Shown here: in pieces, positions 24,297-35,714 of the stretch | Numbering within the stretch: the first letter of the stretch is position 1 | Layout of the letters: each line of letters starts with the position of its first letter | NCBI RefSeq assembly: GCF_018860705.1 | Contig: NZ_JAHKQA010000072.1 | Coordinates: 62,001 to 126,000 of the forward strand | Reading direction: 5' to 3' | Source: Citreicella sp. C3M06 | GTDB lineage: Bacteria; Pseudomonadota; Alphaproteobacteria; Rhodobacterales; Rhodobacteraceae | DNA: 64,000 nt | Position numbers and translations under genes: made by a program | The notes under the pieces: generated by a model | What the model saw: the letters and a program-made list of their open reading frames with translations, nothing else | Database searches by the model: none | Told to the model about the DNA's origin: nothing

Positions 24297-26339
24297 ATGC
24301 GGCAGATCCTCTCTGGGCTTGAGGGTGTATTGATCGGGCAGCGCGGGCATCTGTTCCCTTGGGTGCCGGTTGCTCTGGGCATTGGCATCGGGCTGTACTT
24401 CCTCCCTGGCTTCGAGCCGGCAGCCGAGATGCTATCGCTGGCGGCCCTTGCCGGGGTTGGGCTGCTGGTGCTGTCGCGACGGCTTGGGGTGGGGCACGCA
24501 CCTCTTGTCGTCGCGATGGGCCTTATGGCCTGCGGCTTTGCGCTGGCTGGTGCGCGGGCGCATATGGTCGCCGCGCCGCAGCTGTGGTTCCGCTATTACG
24601 GCCCGATCGAAGGGCGGGTCGTCGCCATCGACCGCTCTGCATCGGATGCGTTGCGGCTGACGCTTGACCGGGTGATGCTGGCCCAGATGGACCCGGCGCG
24701 CACACCCTACCGGGTGCGGGTGTCGCTGCACGGCGAGCAGGGGTTTCTTGAGCCGCGCCCCGGTATGCGGGTGATGATGACCGGACATCTCAGCGCACCC
24801 GGCGGCGCTGCCGAACCCGGCGGCTTTGATTTTCGCCGCCATGCATGGTTCCTGAAGCTGGGCGCGGTCGGTTATACCCGCACCCCGGTGCTGCTGCTCG
24901 GACCTGCGACCGGCGGGCAATGGATTTCGCGGGCGCGGATGGTGCTGTCGGCGCGGGTGCAGGCGGCTCTGCCGGATGAGACCGGGGCCTTTGCCGCCGC
25001 ACTGATGACCGGTGATCGCTCTGCCATGTCGCAACAAAGCATCGAGGCGCTGCGCCACAGCAACCTAGCGCATCTGTTGGCAATTTCAGGCCTGCACATG
25101 GGGCTGCTGGCGGGTTTCGTTTTTGGTTCGGCGCGGATTGCCTTTCTGCTGCCACCTCGGGCACGGCATCATTGGCCCGGCAAGAAGATTGCCGCAGGCA
25201 TCGCGCTTGTCGCCTCGGCGGGCTATCTGGCGCTGTCGGGGGGCAACGTGGCGACGGAGCGCGCCTTCATCATGGTGGCGGTGATGCTGCTGGCGGTGAT
25301 CTTTGATCGGCGGGCGTTGTCGCTGCGCGCCGTGGCGCTGGCGGCGATGATCGTGCTGCTGCTGCGCCCCGAGGCGTTGTTGGGTCCGGGGTTCCAGATG
25401 TCCTTCGCCGCGACAGTGGCGCTTGTCGCCGTCTTCGCAGTGTTGCGCGATCGCGGCACGGAACGCGGGGCACCGGGCTGGGCGCGACCGGTTCTGACCC
25501 TTGTGGTGTCCTCGGCAACGGCCTCGATGGCCACCGCGCCGATCGCCATGGCACATTTCAACCTGCTGTCGCATTACGGGCTGGTCGCCAATCTTGTCGC
25601 CGTGCCGGTGATGGGGGTGCTGGTGATGCCGATGGCGGTGGTGGCCGCCTTGCTGATGCCGCTGGGGTTGGAAGCGCTGGCAATGTGGGTGATGCGGCTT
25701 GGGCTGGACTGGATCCTGCTTGTCGCGCGCACCGTGTCGGGATGGGAAGGCTCGCTTGGCCATATCGTCGCGCCGGGGTCTGCGGTTTTGCCGCTGCTCG
25801 CGCTCGGCGGCTTGACGCTCAGCCTCTGGCGGGGGCGGGGGCGCTGGCTTGGCGTGATGCCGTTGGCGATTGCGGCAACGCTTTGGCCGCTGTCGCAGCG
25901 CCCGGACCTGCTGATCGCCGATACCGGCGCGCTTGTCGGCGCGATGACGGACGATGGGCGGGCCTTGTCGCGCCCGAGGGGCGCGGGGTTTCTCGCCGGG
26001 ATCTGGCTGGAAAACGACGGCGCTGCGCGCACACAGGAGCAGGCGGCGGCGCTTTGGCCCGGCGGAGCACCCGGCAATGTCGCCCGGATCGAGCTGGCCG
26101 GGCTGCGGATCACCCATCTTCAGGGAAAACGGGCCGCCTCGGCCTATACCGGCTGCGAAGATCGCGAGATCGTGGTGTCCAGCGTCGATCTGCCCGATCT
26201 GCCCGGCTGCGAAGTCTATGATCCCAAGCGGTTGAGAACCACGGGCACCATTGCGGTCTGGCTTGGGTCAGCCGGGCCGCGTATCGTCACGTCGCGCGGC
26301 GCGCGCCTGTGGCACGCACCGCCGCGCAGGCGTCAATAG
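24297..26339 (+). CDS. comEC: ComEC/Rec2-family DNA uptake channel
   Basis: A 680-residue inner-membrane protein. The N-terminal region (residues 20-200) has three membrane segments and a DUF4131 OB-like domain. The Competence domain (about 225-500) starts with [23 protein letters not shown] and has about seven membrane segments. A shorter C-terminal region replaces the full beta-lactamase-like domain; the metal-binding HxHxD motif of that domain is not seen. The family moves single-stranded DNA into the cytoplasm during transformation, and in Rhodobacterales it is also required in recipients for uptake of GTA DNA. Its 3' end overlaps that of the convergent lexA gene by seven bases. Confidence 0.92.
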
Positions 26340-27028
26340 CTGCGGATCAATCCGACCAGTTTGCCCTGAACCTTGACCGATCCAATCGGCAAGACCCGCG
26401 GTTCATAGGCGGGGTTCGCGGCTTCGAGAACGATCACCTCGCCCTTGCGACGGAAGCGCTTCAACGTTGCCTCGTAGCCATCGACCTGAGCAACTACGAT
26501 ATCGCCATTTTCGGCCGCCGATGTCTCTCGGATGATGACGACATCTCCGTCATTGATCCCGGCGTCGATCATCGAGTCGCCCTTCACCTCAAGCGCGTAA
26601 TGATGTGAATTCGACGCCAGCATCGCTCCGGGTACGGCAATGCCAGCGGGATTGTCGGAAATCGACTGGATCGGCACCCCGGCCGCGATCCGGCCCATGA
26701 CGGGCAATTCGACCGCATCAATGCTGGCAACCGGGCGCGCGCCGCTGGGCAATTTGTCGGGACGATCGCCATCGATCACTTCGGGGGTGAAGGTCGTTGA
26801 CGCCCCGCCCAGCGTTTCGGGCAGCTTCACGATCTCGATAGCGCGGGCGCGATGGGGCAGGCGACGGATGAAACCGCGCTCTTCCAGAGCGGTGATCAGG
26901 CGGTGGATACCGGACTTGCTGCGCAGATCGAGCGCCTCTTTCATCTCGTCGAAACTGGGCGGCACACCATCGCGTTGCAGCCGCTTGTTGATGAAATCGA
27001 GAAGGTCGAGCTGTTTCTTGGTCAGCAT
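26333..27028 (-). CDS. lexA: LexA repressor
   Basis: The 231-residue SOS repressor. The N-terminal winged helix (residues 1-65) binds DNA. The self-cleavage site is Ala116-Gly117 in RIAAGVPI, and the serine protease dyad is Ser152 (in GDSMIDAG) and Lys190 (in ATLKRF). The linker between the domains (about 70-100) is longer than in E. coli LexA, as in other alphaproteobacteria. The [13 protein letters not shown] is used; an in-frame ATG 24 codons upstream would place its own LexA box inside the gene. The promoter bears a perfect GTTC-N7-GTTC box. It lies at the end of the trp-moa-moe unit. Confidence 0.97.
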
Positions 27029-27056
27029 TCTTGGTTTCCCTGCCTGATGCTCCTTT

Positions 27057-27085
27057 GTTCTATCCATGTTCCCTATTTGTGTCAA
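27057..27085 (-). promoter_or_regulatory. lexA promoter with SOS box
   Basis: On the minus strand TTGACA and TAGAAC are spaced by 17 bases. GAAC-ATGGATA-GAAC (27057-27071), the direct-repeat alphaproteobacterial LexA box, covers the -10 region. It lies 29 bases before the lexA ATG, as expected for autorepression. Confidence 0.88.
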
Positions 27086-27106
27086 TGGCCTGCGGGCCAC
27101 TTCTCG

Positions 27107-28746: not shown

Positions 28747-29546
28747 GCTGCCACCGGATCGCGCAGCAACTGCCGTGTTGCGGTTTCGACATCGGGCTGG
28801 CGCATCAGGCTTTCGCCGATGAGAAAGCTCCGCGCGCCATAGGCAGCCATGTCCGCAAGGTCCGCAGGGCTGTTCAGGCCGCTTTCCGAGACCAGAAGAC
28901 GCTCGGGCGGCACGGTTTTCGACAGCAGGCGCGTTGTCTCAAGACTGGTCTCGAAGGTGTTGAGATTGCGATTATTTATGCCGATCAGCGGTGACTTCAG
29001 CAGCAGCGCCCGTTCGAGTTCTGCGGCGTTGTGCACTTCGATCAGCGCATCCATGCCCCAGAAATTTGCCGCGTCTTCAAGTTCGGCGGCCTGAGCATCC
29101 GAGACGCTTGCCATGATGATCAGGATGCAATCGGCCCCGAGGGCGCGGGCCTCGGCGACCTGATAGGTGTCATACATGAAATCCTTGCGCAGCGCCGGCA
29201 GCGACGTGGCAGCGCGGGCATCGACAAGGAACTGCTTGGCGCCCTGAAAAGACGGTGTGTCGGTCAGGACCGACAGGCAGGTCGCCCCGCCACGCTCGTA
29301 AGCGGCGGCCAATGTCGCGGGGTGAAAATCTTCGCGGATCAAGCCCTTGGAGGGCGAGGCTTTCTTGACTTCGGCAATCAGGCCGTAGCCCGTCTCGCTG
29401 GCCTTGCGCAGCGCCTTGGCGAAGGGGCGCACGGGCGATGCATCGCGCGCCTGTGCTTCGATCTCGGGCAGCGGGCGGGCGGCTTTGTCGGCGGCCACTT
29501 CCTCGAGTTTATAGGCCTTGATCTTGTCGAGGATCGTCTGGGTCAC
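28743..29546 (-). CDS. trpC: Indole-3-glycerol phosphate synthase
   Basis: A 267-residue TIM-barrel enzyme of tryptophan synthesis. Present are [13 protein letters not shown] (about 54-66) with the catalytic lysine, LRKDF, and NNRNL and SESGLN for the phosphate and glutamate positions. It is monofunctional, not fused to TrpF. The GTG start overlaps the ung stop (GTGA), and the stop overlaps moaC. Fourth gene of a unit that starts with trpG. Confidence 0.96.
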
Positions 29547-30193
29547 GGGCGGCCTCCCTGCGGCGTTGTCCAGTTGATGGGGATTTCGCCCCTTGCAATA
29601 AGCCAGTCATTGACGCGGGAAAAGGGGCGCGAGCCGAAAAATCCCCGGCGCGCCGATAGCGGCGAGGGATGCGCCGAGCGCAGGATCAGATGACCGTCGC
29701 CCTGAATGGCGGGCGCGAAGCCCTGTGCGTGGTTGCCCCACAGAATGAAGGCGCGCGGACGGTCGCCAAGCGTTTCAAGAACTTGGGTGGTCAGTTTTGA
29801 CCAGCCAAGCTTGGCGTGCGCGCCAGCATTTCCCGCCGGAACGCTCAGCGCGCTGTTGAGCAGCAGAACGCCCTGATCGGCCCAGAACCGCAGATCGCCA
29901 TTCGGCGGGCAGGTGCCGAATTCCGCCTGAAGCTCCTTGTAGATGTTGCCCAGAGAGCGCGGCAGCGGCCGCACATCTGGTTCGACCGAAAAGGCAAAGC
30001 CATGCGCATGGCCCGGCGTCGGGTAGGGATCCTGCCCAAGGATCACCACGCGCACCTTTTCGGGCGCAACCGCATCGAGCGCGGCAAAGCGCTGCGTGAC
30101 CGGGGGCAGGATGTCATCGCCAGCGGTCAGCGCGGCGATGCGCGGCAGATCCTCGGTGAAAAAGGCCAGCGAGGCCCAAGCCTTGGGCGTCAT
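29543..30193 (-). CDS. ung: Uracil-DNA glycosylase, family 1
   Basis: A 216-residue family 1 UDG that removes uracil from DNA. The water-activating motif is [13 protein letters not shown] with Asp55, followed by the uracil-pocket [11 protein letters not shown] segment and the DNA-intercalation loop HPSPLSA near residue 175. All catalytic elements are intact. It is embedded between trpD and trpC with four-base overlaps on both sides (ATGA and GTGA), so it must be expressed with tryptophan genes. A base-excision repair gene inside a trp operon is unusual in general. Confidence 0.96.
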
Positions 30194-31976: not shown

Positions 31977-33446
31977 ATGGCGAAGAGCTTTGTCGCAGGG
32001 GCGATGGTCGGGTTGGTGGTGTCGGGGGCCGGGGCTGCGGCGCTGTCTTTGCTGATCGGTCCGCCGCAAGCCGTGACGCCCCGACCGGATGTCGAGATCT
32101 CGGACCTGCCTTCGGTTGCGCCGCAGAGCACCGATGCCGACCAGCCTGATGTCGGCGAACCCGGGCTCGCTGTGCCTCAAACCGCGCAGACGCAGCCCGC
32201 AACTGTGGCCTCGCCAGAGCTGCCATCCGAGCCGGTCGTCGACACCCCCGAGCCAGAGACCAGCCTGCAGATGAGCGCCGAATCCAGCGCTCCGGCCGCG
32301 CCGGTCCAGCCAGACCCGGTGGCAAAGCCCATCGACGACGCCCTTGCGCTTGATATGTCGGCGCCCGCCGTCGATGACACCGGCCCCGAGATCCCGTCTG
32401 CGCCACGGCCCGAGCTGGCGGTTCCCGCGCCGGTGGCAACCCGTCCTGCGGCACCTGAGCAGATGGTGTCGGCGACAGACGAGGCGCAGGCCGAGCCGGG
32501 GGCAGAGCTTTCCACCGCAACGCCCGAGCCGCCCTTGCCGATGCCCGCGCCGGTGCCGGCCCCCGTCGATCTTCCGACCATTGGCACCGCCCCTGTCGAA
32601 ACCACGGAAACTGCCCCGCAGGTCAGCTCTGACACGGGCGCGCCGTCGATCGGCGCCCCGGCGCAATCGCTTGTTGACCGCGATGGTCCCGTGCCGAAGC
32701 GGCGCTTGCCCAGCATTGGCAGCGCGCCGCTTGCCGATACGACAGACACCGAAACCGGTCCGTTGCCACCGCTTGTGCGCTATGCCGCCGCCGCTGACAT
32801 TGCCGAGGGAGAGCCGTTGATGTCGGTGGTGCTCATCGATGACGGCGCTGGCCCGCTTGGCCCCGACATGGTCGGGGATCTGCCGTTCCCGGTCAGCTTT
32901 GCGGTCTCGTCCTCGCATCCGAATGCCGCCGCTGCGGCGCGCGCCTATCGCGCCGCTGGCTTCGAAGTGCTGGCAATGGCCGGTGTGCCGAAGGGCGCGC
33001 AAGCGAGCGATGTCGAGGTCAGCCTCGAAGGTGCGCTTGGGGCGGTGCCCGAGGCCATCGGCGTGCTCGAAGATCCGGCGAGCGGTCTTCAGGAGACGCG
33101 CTCCGTCTCCGAGCAGGCGGCGCAATTCCTGCGCGACACCGGACACGGGTTGCTGATGATGTCCAAGGGCATGGGCACCGGCGAGGCGCTGGCGCAGCGG
33201 GTGGGGGTGCCGACGGCGCAGGTGTTCCGCGATTTCGACGGCGCCGGACAGGACCCGCGCGTCATGCGCCGTTTCCTTGATCAGGCGGCGTTCCGCGCCC
33301 GTCAGGAAGGATCGGTCGTCATGCTTGGGCGGCTGCGCGCCGATACGCTGACGGCGCTGGTGATCTGGGGCCTTCAGGACCGCGCGAGCAGCGTCGCGCT
33401 GGTGCCGGTATCGGCCATCATGACGCAGGGCGCCGCGCCGGGCTGA
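31977..33446 (+). CDS. Divergent polysaccharide deacetylase (YibQ-like)
   Basis: A 489-residue exported protein. One N-terminal membrane segment (about 5-27) acts as signal anchor. Residues 30-260 are a long Pro/Ala/Thr/Glu-rich low-complexity linker that could span the periplasm. The C-terminal 220 residues match the YibQ family of divergent polysaccharide deacetylases: [36 protein letters not shown], and [15 protein letters not shown]. The family is related to NodB-type deacetylases but its substrate is unknown. It is placed next to trpG, as yibQ is in R. sphaeroides, but here the two are divergent. The ATG was chosen at the beginning of the anchor; a TTG six bases earlier is also possible. 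Confidence 0.85.
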
Positions 33447-33738: not shown

Positions 33739-33768
33739 TTGCGAATGTTCGCATAATGTTCCTATTCT
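33739..33768 (+). promoter_or_regulatory. SOS-type promoter of the radical SAM gene
   Basis: TTGCGA and TATTCT are spaced by 18 bases, and the spacer is filled by GTTC-GCATAAT-GTTC (33747-33761), a perfect alphaproteobacterial LexA direct repeat like that before lexA. A third GTTC stands at 33731. A start point seven bases after the -10 would fall on the ATG itself; no Shine-Dalgarno is visible. Confidence 0.8.
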
Positions 33769-33774
33769 TGCGGC

Positions 33775-34857
33775 ATGAGTGCAGAAAGATCCATCACCGC
33801 AGAGCGTCGCGCCGGGCGCGGCGCCTCCAGCCGCGATTGCGGGCGGTTCGAACGTCACCGCTATGAAGATGCGCATGATGGCTGGGATCTGCCCGAAGAG
33901 CTGCCGCCGCTGCGCACGGAGGTCGTGCAAGAACGGCCGCGCAGCCTGATCAACTATGTGCGCTCTCCGGATGTGCCGTTTGATCGCACGATCAATCCCT
34001 ATCGCGGCTGCGAGCATGGCTGCATCTATTGCTTTGCCCGCCCGAGCCACGCCTATCTTGGCCTGTCGCCGGGCCTCGATTTCGAGACGAAACTGGTGGC
34101 GCGGCCGGACGCGCCCGAGGTGCTGGCGCGCGAATTGCGGGCGCGGCGCTATCGCCCGCAGACCATCGCCATCGGCACCAACACCGATCCGTATCAGCCC
34201 ATCGAGCGTGATCGCGGCATCATGCGCGCCTGTCTCGAGGTGCTGCGCGATTTCAATCACCCGGTCGCCATCGTCACCAAGGGCACGCTGATCGAGCGCG
34301 ACATCGACATTCTTGCGGATATGGCGCGGCGAGGGCTGGCGCGGGTCGGGATCTCGGTTACCACGCTGGACGCGACTCTGGCACGGCGGATGGAGCCGCG
34401 GGTGCCGTCTCCGACGCGCAGACTGGCGACGATCCAGCGGCTGAGCGCCGCCGGGATCGAGGTGCGGGTGATGGCTTCGCCGGTGGTTCCGGCCCTGACC
34501 GATCCGGAGCTGGAACGCATTCTCGAGGCCGGGGCCAAGGCCGGTGCGGTGGCGGCGAGCTGGATCATGCTGCGCCTGCCGCGCGAGGTCTCGCCGCTGT
34601 GGCGGGCATGGCTGGCCGAACATTACCCGGATCGCGCCGCGCGTGTCATGGCGCGCTTGCGCGAGATGCACGGAGGTCAGGATTACAGCGCCGACTGGGG
34701 CCGCCGGATGCGCGGCGAAGGTCCTTACGCCGAGCTGATCGCCCGCCGTTTCGCGCTGGCAAGCCGCAAGCTGGGGCTGGACCGCAAACTGCCGCCACTG
34801 CGCACCGACCTGTTCGCGCCCCCCGCACGGGCGGGCGACCAGTTGAGCCTGTTCTAG
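33775..34857 (+). CDS. PA0069-family radical SAM protein with clamp-binding tail
   Basis: A 360-residue protein of the PA0069/Rv2578c-type radical SAM family, distantly related to spore photoproduct lyase. The 4Fe-4S cluster motif is CX3CX2C: Cys79, Cys83 and Cys86 in YRGCEHGCIYCFAR. IGTNTDPYQPIE and VAIVTKGTLIERD follow, typical of the TIM barrel of the family. The last eight residues are AGDQLSLF; Q356-F360 (QLSLF) matches the consensus beta-sliding-clamp binding pentapeptide. The promoter contains a LexA box. Together these point to a DNA-repair or damage-tolerance enzyme acting at the replisome, but its lesion is unknown. The stop codon shares CTAG with the stop of the convergent HAD gene. 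Confidence 0.9.
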   Translation: MSAERSITAERRAGRGASSRDCGRFERHRYEDAHDGWDLPEELPPLRTEVVQERPRSLINYVRSPDVPFDRTINPYRGCEHGCIYCFARPSHAYLGLSPGLDFETKLVARPDAPEVLARELRARRYRPQTIAIGTNTDPYQPIERDRGIMRACLEVLRDFNHPVAIVTKGTLIERDIDILADMARRGLARVGISVTTLDATLARRMEPRVPSPTRRLATIQRLSAAGIEVRVMASPVVPALTDPELERILEAGAKAGAVAASWIMLRLPREVSPLWRAWLAEHYPDRAARVMARLREMHGGQDYSADWGRRMRGEGPYAELIARRFALASRKLGLDRKLPPLRTDLFAPPARAGDQLSLF

Positions 34858-35516
34858 GCGCTCAGCCGGGCAAGAATGCCCTCCAGCGCCGGGTCTTCGT
34901 AATCGGCGATGGTGATCTTGGCGCCGGCTTCGCGCAGGCGATCCTCGGGCAGGCCAGACCGGATGCCGACCGCATAGCCGCCAGAGCGCGCGGCGGCGCG
35001 CATGCCGCTCGGGCTGTCCTCGAAGAGGATACAATCCTGCGGGCGCACGCCCAGCTCGCGCATGGCCAGCAGATAAGGTTCGGGGTCGGGCTTGGCGCGG
35101 GCGCATTCATCCCCGATGATCAGCAGCTCGAACCGCTTGCGCAGGCCGATGGCCTCCAGCATGTATTCGCCGTTTTCGCGCGGCGCGTTGGTCACCACCG
35201 CCAGCCGCCAGCCCTCGCGGTCCGCCCGGTCAAGCAGCGCCTCGGCCCCCGGCATCGGCGCTGTCCCATGGCCGAGGCTGTCGCGAAACCGCGCCTCTTT
35301 CTCGTCAGAAAGCGCCTGCGGGTCTTCGCCCGGAAACAGCTTGGGAAAGCTGTCGAGGTTGTGGTTGCCGTGAATCTGCGTCTCGTAGATCTGCTGGGTC
35401 AGGGTCTTGCCGCGCTCGGCAAACATCTCGGCGAAGACCTGGTAATGAAGCGGGTCCGACAGCAAAAGCGTGCCGTCGAGATCAAACAGAAGTGCCTTGC
35501 TGCCAGCAATCGCCAT
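34854..35516 (-). CDS. HAD-IA family hydrolase
   Basis: A 220-residue haloacid dehalogenase-type phosphatase. Motif I is FDLDGTLLLSD with nucleophile Asp12, motif II is the VVTNAP segment, motif III the Lys in AKPDP, and motif IV is FEDSPSG. A helical cap inserted after motif I (about residues 18-85) makes it subfamily IA, like phosphoglycolate phosphatase or beta-phosphoglucomutase; the substrate cannot be assigned. The ATG MAIAGSKALL fits the family start better than an in-frame one 17 codons upstream. It converges on the radical SAM gene; the two stop codons overlap as CTAG. Confidence 0.9.
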   Translation of the reverse strand: MAIAGSKALLFDLDGTLLLSDPLHYQVFAEMFAERGKTLTQQIYETQIHGNHNLDSFPKLFPGEDPQALSDEKEARFRDSLGHGTAPMPGAEALLDRADREGWRLAVVTNAPRENGEYMLEAIGLRKRFELLIIGDECARAKPDPEPYLLAMRELGVRPQDCILFEDSPSGMRAAARSGGYAVGIRSGLPEDRLREAGAKITIADYEDPALEGILARLSA

Positions 35517-35714
35517 GGTTGGTCCTTGTGCGTCTTGAGGGCGCATCGCGCGGCCCTTTCGTGGCACTGATAGCGGTAAAACCGCTTGGATGCACTCGTT
35601 TCCCGCGCGGCTGCCCGACCGCTTTTGGGGAAGTGTTTACCGTTGCTTAGGGATGTGCTGCGAGTGTGCCTTGGGCGTCGGGCGAATGGCAGACAGCAAG
35701 GGGCAGGGCAGCCG

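Follow-up and report, generated by a model that had tools for sequence, protein, structure and literature searches.

SplB-like genes under SOS control have appeared in regulon papers since 2012, when predicted LexA sites were described in front of 'splB' in alpha- and beta-Proteobacteria, each class with its own LexA motif; in the available sections of that paper, the SOS-regulated 'splB' is presented as the first evidence of an SOS-controlled photoreactivation enzyme (PMC3323433). Later papers describe an SOS-regulated SplB in Bacteroidetes (PMC8565304) and, for Gram-positives and Balneolaeota, SOS regulons that include a radical S-adenosylmethionine (SAM) protein (PMC7739468); SOS neighbourhoods containing ImuB-C domains have been linked to SplB-like proteins as well (PMC3765255). 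The gene considered here lies in a stretch of 64,000 nucleotides (nt) from the alphaproteobacterium Citreicella sp. C3M06 (contig NZ_JAHKQA010000072.1), referred to below as the window. It encodes a radical SAM protein of the PA0069 family, is preceded by a LexA-type box and ends in QLSLF, a motif of the kind that binds the sliding clamp, DnaN. To our knowledge, no tested function has been assigned to the SOS-controlled SplB-like genes.

The clamp-binding motif, QL[S/D]LF or QxxLF, is described for PolC, DnaE1 and transposases (PMC12309361, PMC3919608, PMC4549789), and in PolC and many transposases it is C-terminal, as in the window protein. Positions 1, 4 and 5 are the most important for binding, according to the relevant excerpts (PMC12309361, PMC3919608). 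A PolC peptide with a terminal QLSLF binds DnaN with a dissociation constant of 3.8 uM in B. subtilis (PMC12309361), and QLSLF placed on a transposase binds an alphaproteobacterial clamp (PMC4549789). The known proteins with this motif are polymerases and transposases; the portions of these three papers at hand name no radical SAM enzyme.

The 'splB' of 2012 (PMC3323433) is very probably the same gene as the window gene, since 105 of the 109 genomes of the window's own family that have a match have just one; in the remaining 4 there is a single weak match, or the match is in pieces or accompanied by extra ones. Both accounts place predicted LexA sites before an SplB-like gene in both classes. 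The 'splB' paper differs in its photoreactivation reading and, in the sections seen, neither mentions a clamp motif nor sets the gene apart from true spore photoproduct lyase. The initial annotation of the window, made from the sequence alone, knew of no described system of this kind. SOS control, however, is not new, but the statement stands for the clamp tail on SOS radical SAM proteins, of which no report was found in open-access full text, a scope that leaves most subscription papers outside. Because SOS control has already been published, the clamp tail is the new part.

The gene, its cluster motif, the box and the tail are all confirmed, and neither the box nor the tail is a matter of chance. 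The sequences and the predicted model point, with a probability somewhat better than even, to a LexA-repressed, clamp-tethered radical SAM enzyme that would act on DNA near the replication fork.

The LexA box

The homologues compared come from three sources. Among 149 genomes of the window's own family, 109 have a match, and in 105 of these the gene is full-length; the 4 others, with fragments or weak matches, were dropped. Further homologues come from part of the 171 genomes above cut-off among 398 genomes of the phylum, and from 80 named loci. Two of 320 loci were dropped as incomplete genes. Here 'alpha' denotes the window's own class, and 'other classes' denotes beta and gamma by inference. 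For the other classes, 47 genomes were taken from among the matches listed; they lean to better scores, since weaker matches and most of the extra same-family ones were left out.

The perfect GTTC-N7-GTTC direct repeat claimed for the promoter is present (Table 1). The pattern itself is weak evidence: the window holds 3 matches against 1.31 expected (at least 3 in 12 of 100 shuffles), and the whole genome has 113 sites, fewer than the 134 of the same pattern read backward. The bare 15-mer was therefore rejected as proof of a LexA site, and the evidence lies in its positional conservation across relatives. A perfect box is found upstream in 253 of 271 alphaproteobacterial loci (246 of 264 among non-identical proteins) within -300 to +30 of the start codon, two of 273 loci with less than 100 nt upstream having been left out. 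This conservation in homologues had been named beforehand as a check. By sample, the box occurs in 97/104 loci of the own family, 77/79 named loci, 30/30 and 42/50 loci of other families of the class, and 7/8 further own-family loci, and its median position in own-family loci is -27; since start codons were chosen by script, such distances are approximate. The reversed box GAAC-N7-GAAC is upstream of only 7 of the 271 genes. When all 256 tetramers are repeated at the N7 spacing, GTTC ranks first with 253, followed by TGTT (206) and TTCT (131), both of which overlap the box. Half-site spacings from 0 to 20 other than 7 give at most 38 of 271 loci, at spacing 11, and no more than 12 elsewhere. 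GTTC-N11-GTTC may mark a third half-site.

The LexA of Beta- and Gammaproteobacteria recognises a different sequence from that of Alphaproteobacteria. In the other classes, CTGT-N8-ACAG is upstream in 30 of the 47 homologue loci and lies at -23 to -55 in 27 of these 30, while other spacings between 2 and 14 are found in at most 2 of the 47. Two of the four actinobacterial relatives, members of the Rv2578c family, have GAAC-N4-GTTC upstream. Apart from SOS control, little would readily account for the conservation of different LexA boxes in front of one and the same gene. The window gene thus has the two features expected of a LexA regulon member, a host-type box at its promoter and conservation of that box in orthologues. 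PA0069 itself probably belongs to the P. aeruginosa LexA regulon.

The initial annotation also placed such a box before lexA in the window. A box is present there, but on the lexA strand it reads GAAC-N7-GAAC (Table 1). A weight matrix built from 95 family loci, with the own genus excluded, was scored on 100 of the 113 sites of the genome, and the ranks given here refer to these 100; a preliminary scoring had covered 25 hand-picked sites. The box of the radical SAM gene scores 18.28 and ranks 7. The top site (L360 2283-2297) is just before imuB, beside imuB-dnaE2, and the site of rank 3 is immediately before uvrA. Two particulars of this list may be added: the top site falls inside an upstream open reading frame (ORF), on the opposite strand, and the site of rank 5 is GTTCCCCTTACGTTC (L009, C31:146990-147004).

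The C-terminal tail

The last five residues are QLSLF, as annotated. The tail pattern, Qxx[LMF][FLI] no more than three residues from the protein end, is present in 293 of the 318 complete homologues (288 of 313 when identical ones are removed), which bears out the second check named beforehand, that homologues mostly keep a clamp-like end. The same pattern ends only 6 of 2085 other ORFs of at least 100 residues in the same loci, these ORFs being mechanical and not all real genes. The 323-row alignment reaches down to 36% identity to the query, contains four actinobacterial rows, and holds the query twice (also as L031) with 5 more identical homologues. In it, Q356 at motif position 1 is Q in 322 rows, L359 at position 4 is L in 315, and position 5 (residue 360) is F in 233, L in 73 and I in 5, together 311; positions 2 and 3 are variable. 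The conserved positions are those of the clamp motif, and they lie at an end that is predicted to be flexible and accessible: mean predicted local distance difference test (pLDDT) is 68 at residues 351-360, compared with 94-96 at residues 321-350. The DnaN of the own genome is ordinary and matches solved clamps from end to end.

The Rv2578c family of Actinobacteria, whose members here are homologues 38-43% identical to the window protein, forms an NCBIfam family (NF038135) apart from NF033668. The four proteins examined from it keep the Q and L of the tail past the end of the family model, but the linker before them is longer and variable; QEPLF and QESLF are the tails in two of the four.

The protein and its fold

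The interval 33739..34857 given in the initial annotation does contain the gene, although its first position takes in the promoter and the ORF begins only at 33775. The protein matches rSAM_PA0069 (NF033668) with an E-value of 1.2e-152 and 507.9 bits against a cut-off of 360, residues 14-360 being aligned to positions 2-348 of the 348 of the model, so that the assignment to the PA0069 type holds. Its score for the sister family Rv2578c is 240.1 bits, below the cut-off of 430. In Pfam, Radical_SAM is matched above cut-off with 73.3 bits, and no further Pfam family is matched. The Cys residues are 22, 79, 83, 86 and 153, and the annotated CxxxCxxC motif is formed by C79, C83 and C86. A second conserved stretch, GTNTDPYQPIE, is likely, from its conservation, to be part of the active site: D138 and Q141 are found in all 323 rows, T137 in 321, Y140 in 319 and E144 in 318. 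A separate alignment (A1) was restricted to 48 of the 80 named loci by excluding those that are incomplete, lack an ATG start or are near-identical to others.

Table 1. Positions of the features of the radical SAM locus and of lexA in the window
Feature	Position	Strand	Basis or remark
Direct-repeat LexA-type box GTTCGCATAATGTTC	33747..33761	+	Perfect GTTC-N7-GTTC; 13 nt between box end and ATG
PA0069-family radical SAM gene, 360 residues	33775..34857, including stop codon	+	ORF, ATG start
Codons of C79xxxC83xxC86, [4Fe-4S]/SAM motif	34009..34032	+	Three Cys in 323/323 rows
Codons of GTNTDPYQPIE, residues 134-144	34174..34206	+	Alignment conservation
Codons of QLSLF, clamp-binding-like motif	34840..34854	+	C-terminus GDQLSLF
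lexA	26333..27100, likely ATG 27028	-	TIGR00498, 182.9 bits against cut-off 110.95
LexA-type box before lexA	27057..27071	+, opposite to lexA	Ends 28 nt from ATG 27028
HAD-type hydrolase	34854-35567	-	Overlaps the stop of the radical SAM gene

Kinship to spore photoproduct lyase, also part of the initial annotation, depends on the kind of comparison. When the predicted model is re-aligned to the top chains of a Foldseek search, its closest fold is that of spore photoproduct lyase (PDB 4FHC, 4FHE, 4FHF, 4FHG, 4K9R and 4RH0), and the model has the same fold as these structures. At the sequence level, however, a profile search of the PDB returns no lyase at E-values up to 1; its seven chains at 0.028-0.17 are SkfB, NifB and diguanylate cyclases. 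A phmmer search of the PDB finds no solved relative at an E-value of 0.1 or better, and no lyase family is among the six NCBIfam matches at 0.01 or better. Only the three cluster Cys columns are conserved, and no fourth Cys is conserved among the 323 rows: the next most frequent Cys columns have C in 96, 62, 61 and 45 rows, and columns 133-138 have no Cys in any row. Since no Cys is conserved beyond those of the cluster, the acting residues of the family probably differ from those of the lyase. The family-wide SOS box and clamp-type tail are features of the window protein's family, and the comparison with the lyases is restricted to fold, identity and Cys residues.

Proposed function and alternatives

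In the proposed mechanism, LexA would repress the gene through the promoter box, as the conservation of the box suggests, and DNA damage would lift the repression. The protein is predicted to adopt the fold of spore photoproduct lyase, with a [4Fe-4S] cluster and SAM at its centre. Its last five residues, behind a variable linker, would bind the peptide pocket of DnaN, judging from the motif, and this contact would hold the enzyme at forks or gaps, where it may act on DNA by radical chemistry, most likely by direct reversal of a base lesion. The parts of this scheme differ in strength. SOS control and clamp docking are highly probable from the sequence comparisons, DNA is the fairly probable substrate, and lesion reversal has a little less than an even chance of being the activity.

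Several observations weigh against the scheme. The perfect alphaproteobacterial box is missing in the searched range from 18 of the 271 loci; in two of these it lies just further out, at -308 and -325, in 11 a copy with one mismatch is found at -20 to -85, and 5 show neither nearby. CTGT-N8-ACAG is missing from 17 of the 47 loci of other classes, two of which (L248 and L256) have TTAG-N6-TACTA sites, presumably similar to the LexA box of Xanthomonadales. The lexA box, in its other orientation, scores only 12.07 and ranks 22. The pattern is missing from 25 of the 318 tails; in most of these the motif is there but runs on into a longer extension (QLSLFGEGA, QGDLFAGD...), or a six-residue version takes its place (QMALDL, QMRLAF, QLGFDL), and a few are degenerate (ends RQALL and QLALW). 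The lyase structures share only 12-14% identity with the protein, and no conserved Cys, as judged by alignment columns, is like C140 of the lyase, which is mutated in those PDB entries and which we take to be the H-atom donor of the solved enzyme. Finally, the gene shares no operon with repair genes in the window, and within the family the presence of the gene is not associated with dnaE2 (p 0.33).

The protein could instead be a plain spore-photoproduct-type photolyase that reverses ultraviolet photoproducts in DNA, the clamp contact being incidental. The closest predicted fold agrees with this, as does the name splB given to the SOS gene of alpha- and beta-Proteobacteria with its tie to photoreactivation (PMC3323433, in part). 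In the 149 family genomes, the gene also co-occurs with photolyase (100 have both, 8 the gene alone, 31 photolyase alone and 10 neither; p 0.009), but this association was set aside; it is weak and carries no correction for kinship among the genomes. The spore photoproduct is a lesion of dry spore DNA, and the hosts of the window family make no such spores. The missing fourth Cys also argues against a plain photolyase, a reading that would not account for a tail in which Q and L hardly ever vary and that we consider distinctly unlikely. A clamp-tethered enzyme that modifies RNA or a protein, such as the clamp, a polymerase or another part of the replisome, with no DNA lesion involved, is unlikely as well: the lyases are about 4 Z units or more above the structures behind that idea, and SOS control with a clamp motif best suits a DNA substrate.

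The signals themselves could also be read differently. The QxxLF end might be a structural part of the fold or serve a partner other than the clamp, and F347, in the DLFxxP stretch immediately ahead of this end, is likewise conserved, in 319 of 323 rows. However, the linker between F347 and Q356, although 8 residues long in 247 of the rows, ranges from 4 to 26, the pLDDT drops in the last ten residues, and the four Rv2578c proteins keep Q and L after their longer linker. Six-residue ends of the QMALDL and QMRLAF type, found in some members, are the other known clamp motif. Together with the tails that run on past the motif and with the choice of positions that are conserved, these points make a structural role quite improbable. 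That the box serves the divergent neighbour rather than the radical SAM gene is scarcely credible, even though a divergent gene begins upstream in many relatives: this neighbour is corrinoid-protein-like in Rhodobacterales and glycosyltransferase-like in Rhizobiales while the box stays, the box keeps close to the radical SAM gene in own-family loci, and in other classes the gene has a LexA-type box of its own at a similarly short distance.

The reading as a LexA-repressed, clamp-tethered enzyme may extend beyond one class. More tentatively, and with rather less than an even chance, the family may represent a widespread SOS pathway in Proteobacteria and Actinobacteria, in which a lyase-fold enzyme without the extra Cys is carried by the clamp, next to translesion polymerases, and reverses, by radical chemistry, a DNA lesion that has not been assigned to any enzyme. 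Nearly all members examined retain the contact positions of the clamp motif, and the motif indicates where the enzyme would be expected to work. If the reading is right, some lesion would be repaired at the fork through direct radical reversal rather than bypassed, the tethered enzyme could lead to its lesion, and it would, as far as we know, be the first radical enzyme of DNA repair that is tethered to the clamp.

Gene surroundings and distant relatives

In the window, the gene stands alone. Upstream, a same-strand ORF of 730 residues ends at 33446, and the HAD-type hydrolase gene follows directly. Elsewhere, 39 of 79 complete named loci have same-strand downstream ORFs that fall into one single-linkage cluster, at a median distance of 168 nt; in the Rhizobiales loci L086 and L122, where it was checked by hidden Markov model (HMM), this cluster is RNase HII (rnhB). 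In these and other Rhizobiales loci, a glycosyltransferase-like gene is divergent and upstream of the radical SAM gene. In the Rhodobacterales loci L061 and L064, genes of a split methionine synthase flank it. HMM checks in L061 identify a corrinoid-protein-like gene, a betaine-homocysteine methyltransferase and a methyltetrahydrofolate:corrinoid methyltransferase; in L064, the corrinoid-protein-like gene was checked in this way and the rest was assigned by eye. In the window, no such genes are adjacent to the radical SAM gene. RNase HII and split methionine synthase were both rejected as operon partners, since neither is general. Because the neighbours change while both signals stay, the box and the tail belong to the radical SAM gene. 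The uracil-DNA glycosylase gene ung (29543-30193, minus strand) is about 3.6 kb from the radical SAM gene, between ORFs that we take for trpC and trpD.

Phage and viral copies comprise 10 distant phage records and 3 contigs of viral origin; of the two viral scans, one gave no match. The motif is absent from two proteins with the annotation 'radical SAM mobile pair protein B' and from two phage proteins with similar ends. One of five gut-phage records ends in it (QMSLFE), as do 2 of 10 plasmid loci with distant radical SAM proteins, both clostridial (QQSLFD and QLSFF); one of these 10 loci has only 76 residues before the stop. Given the clamp-like ends in L373, L374 and L380, such tails may occur beyond the two named families.
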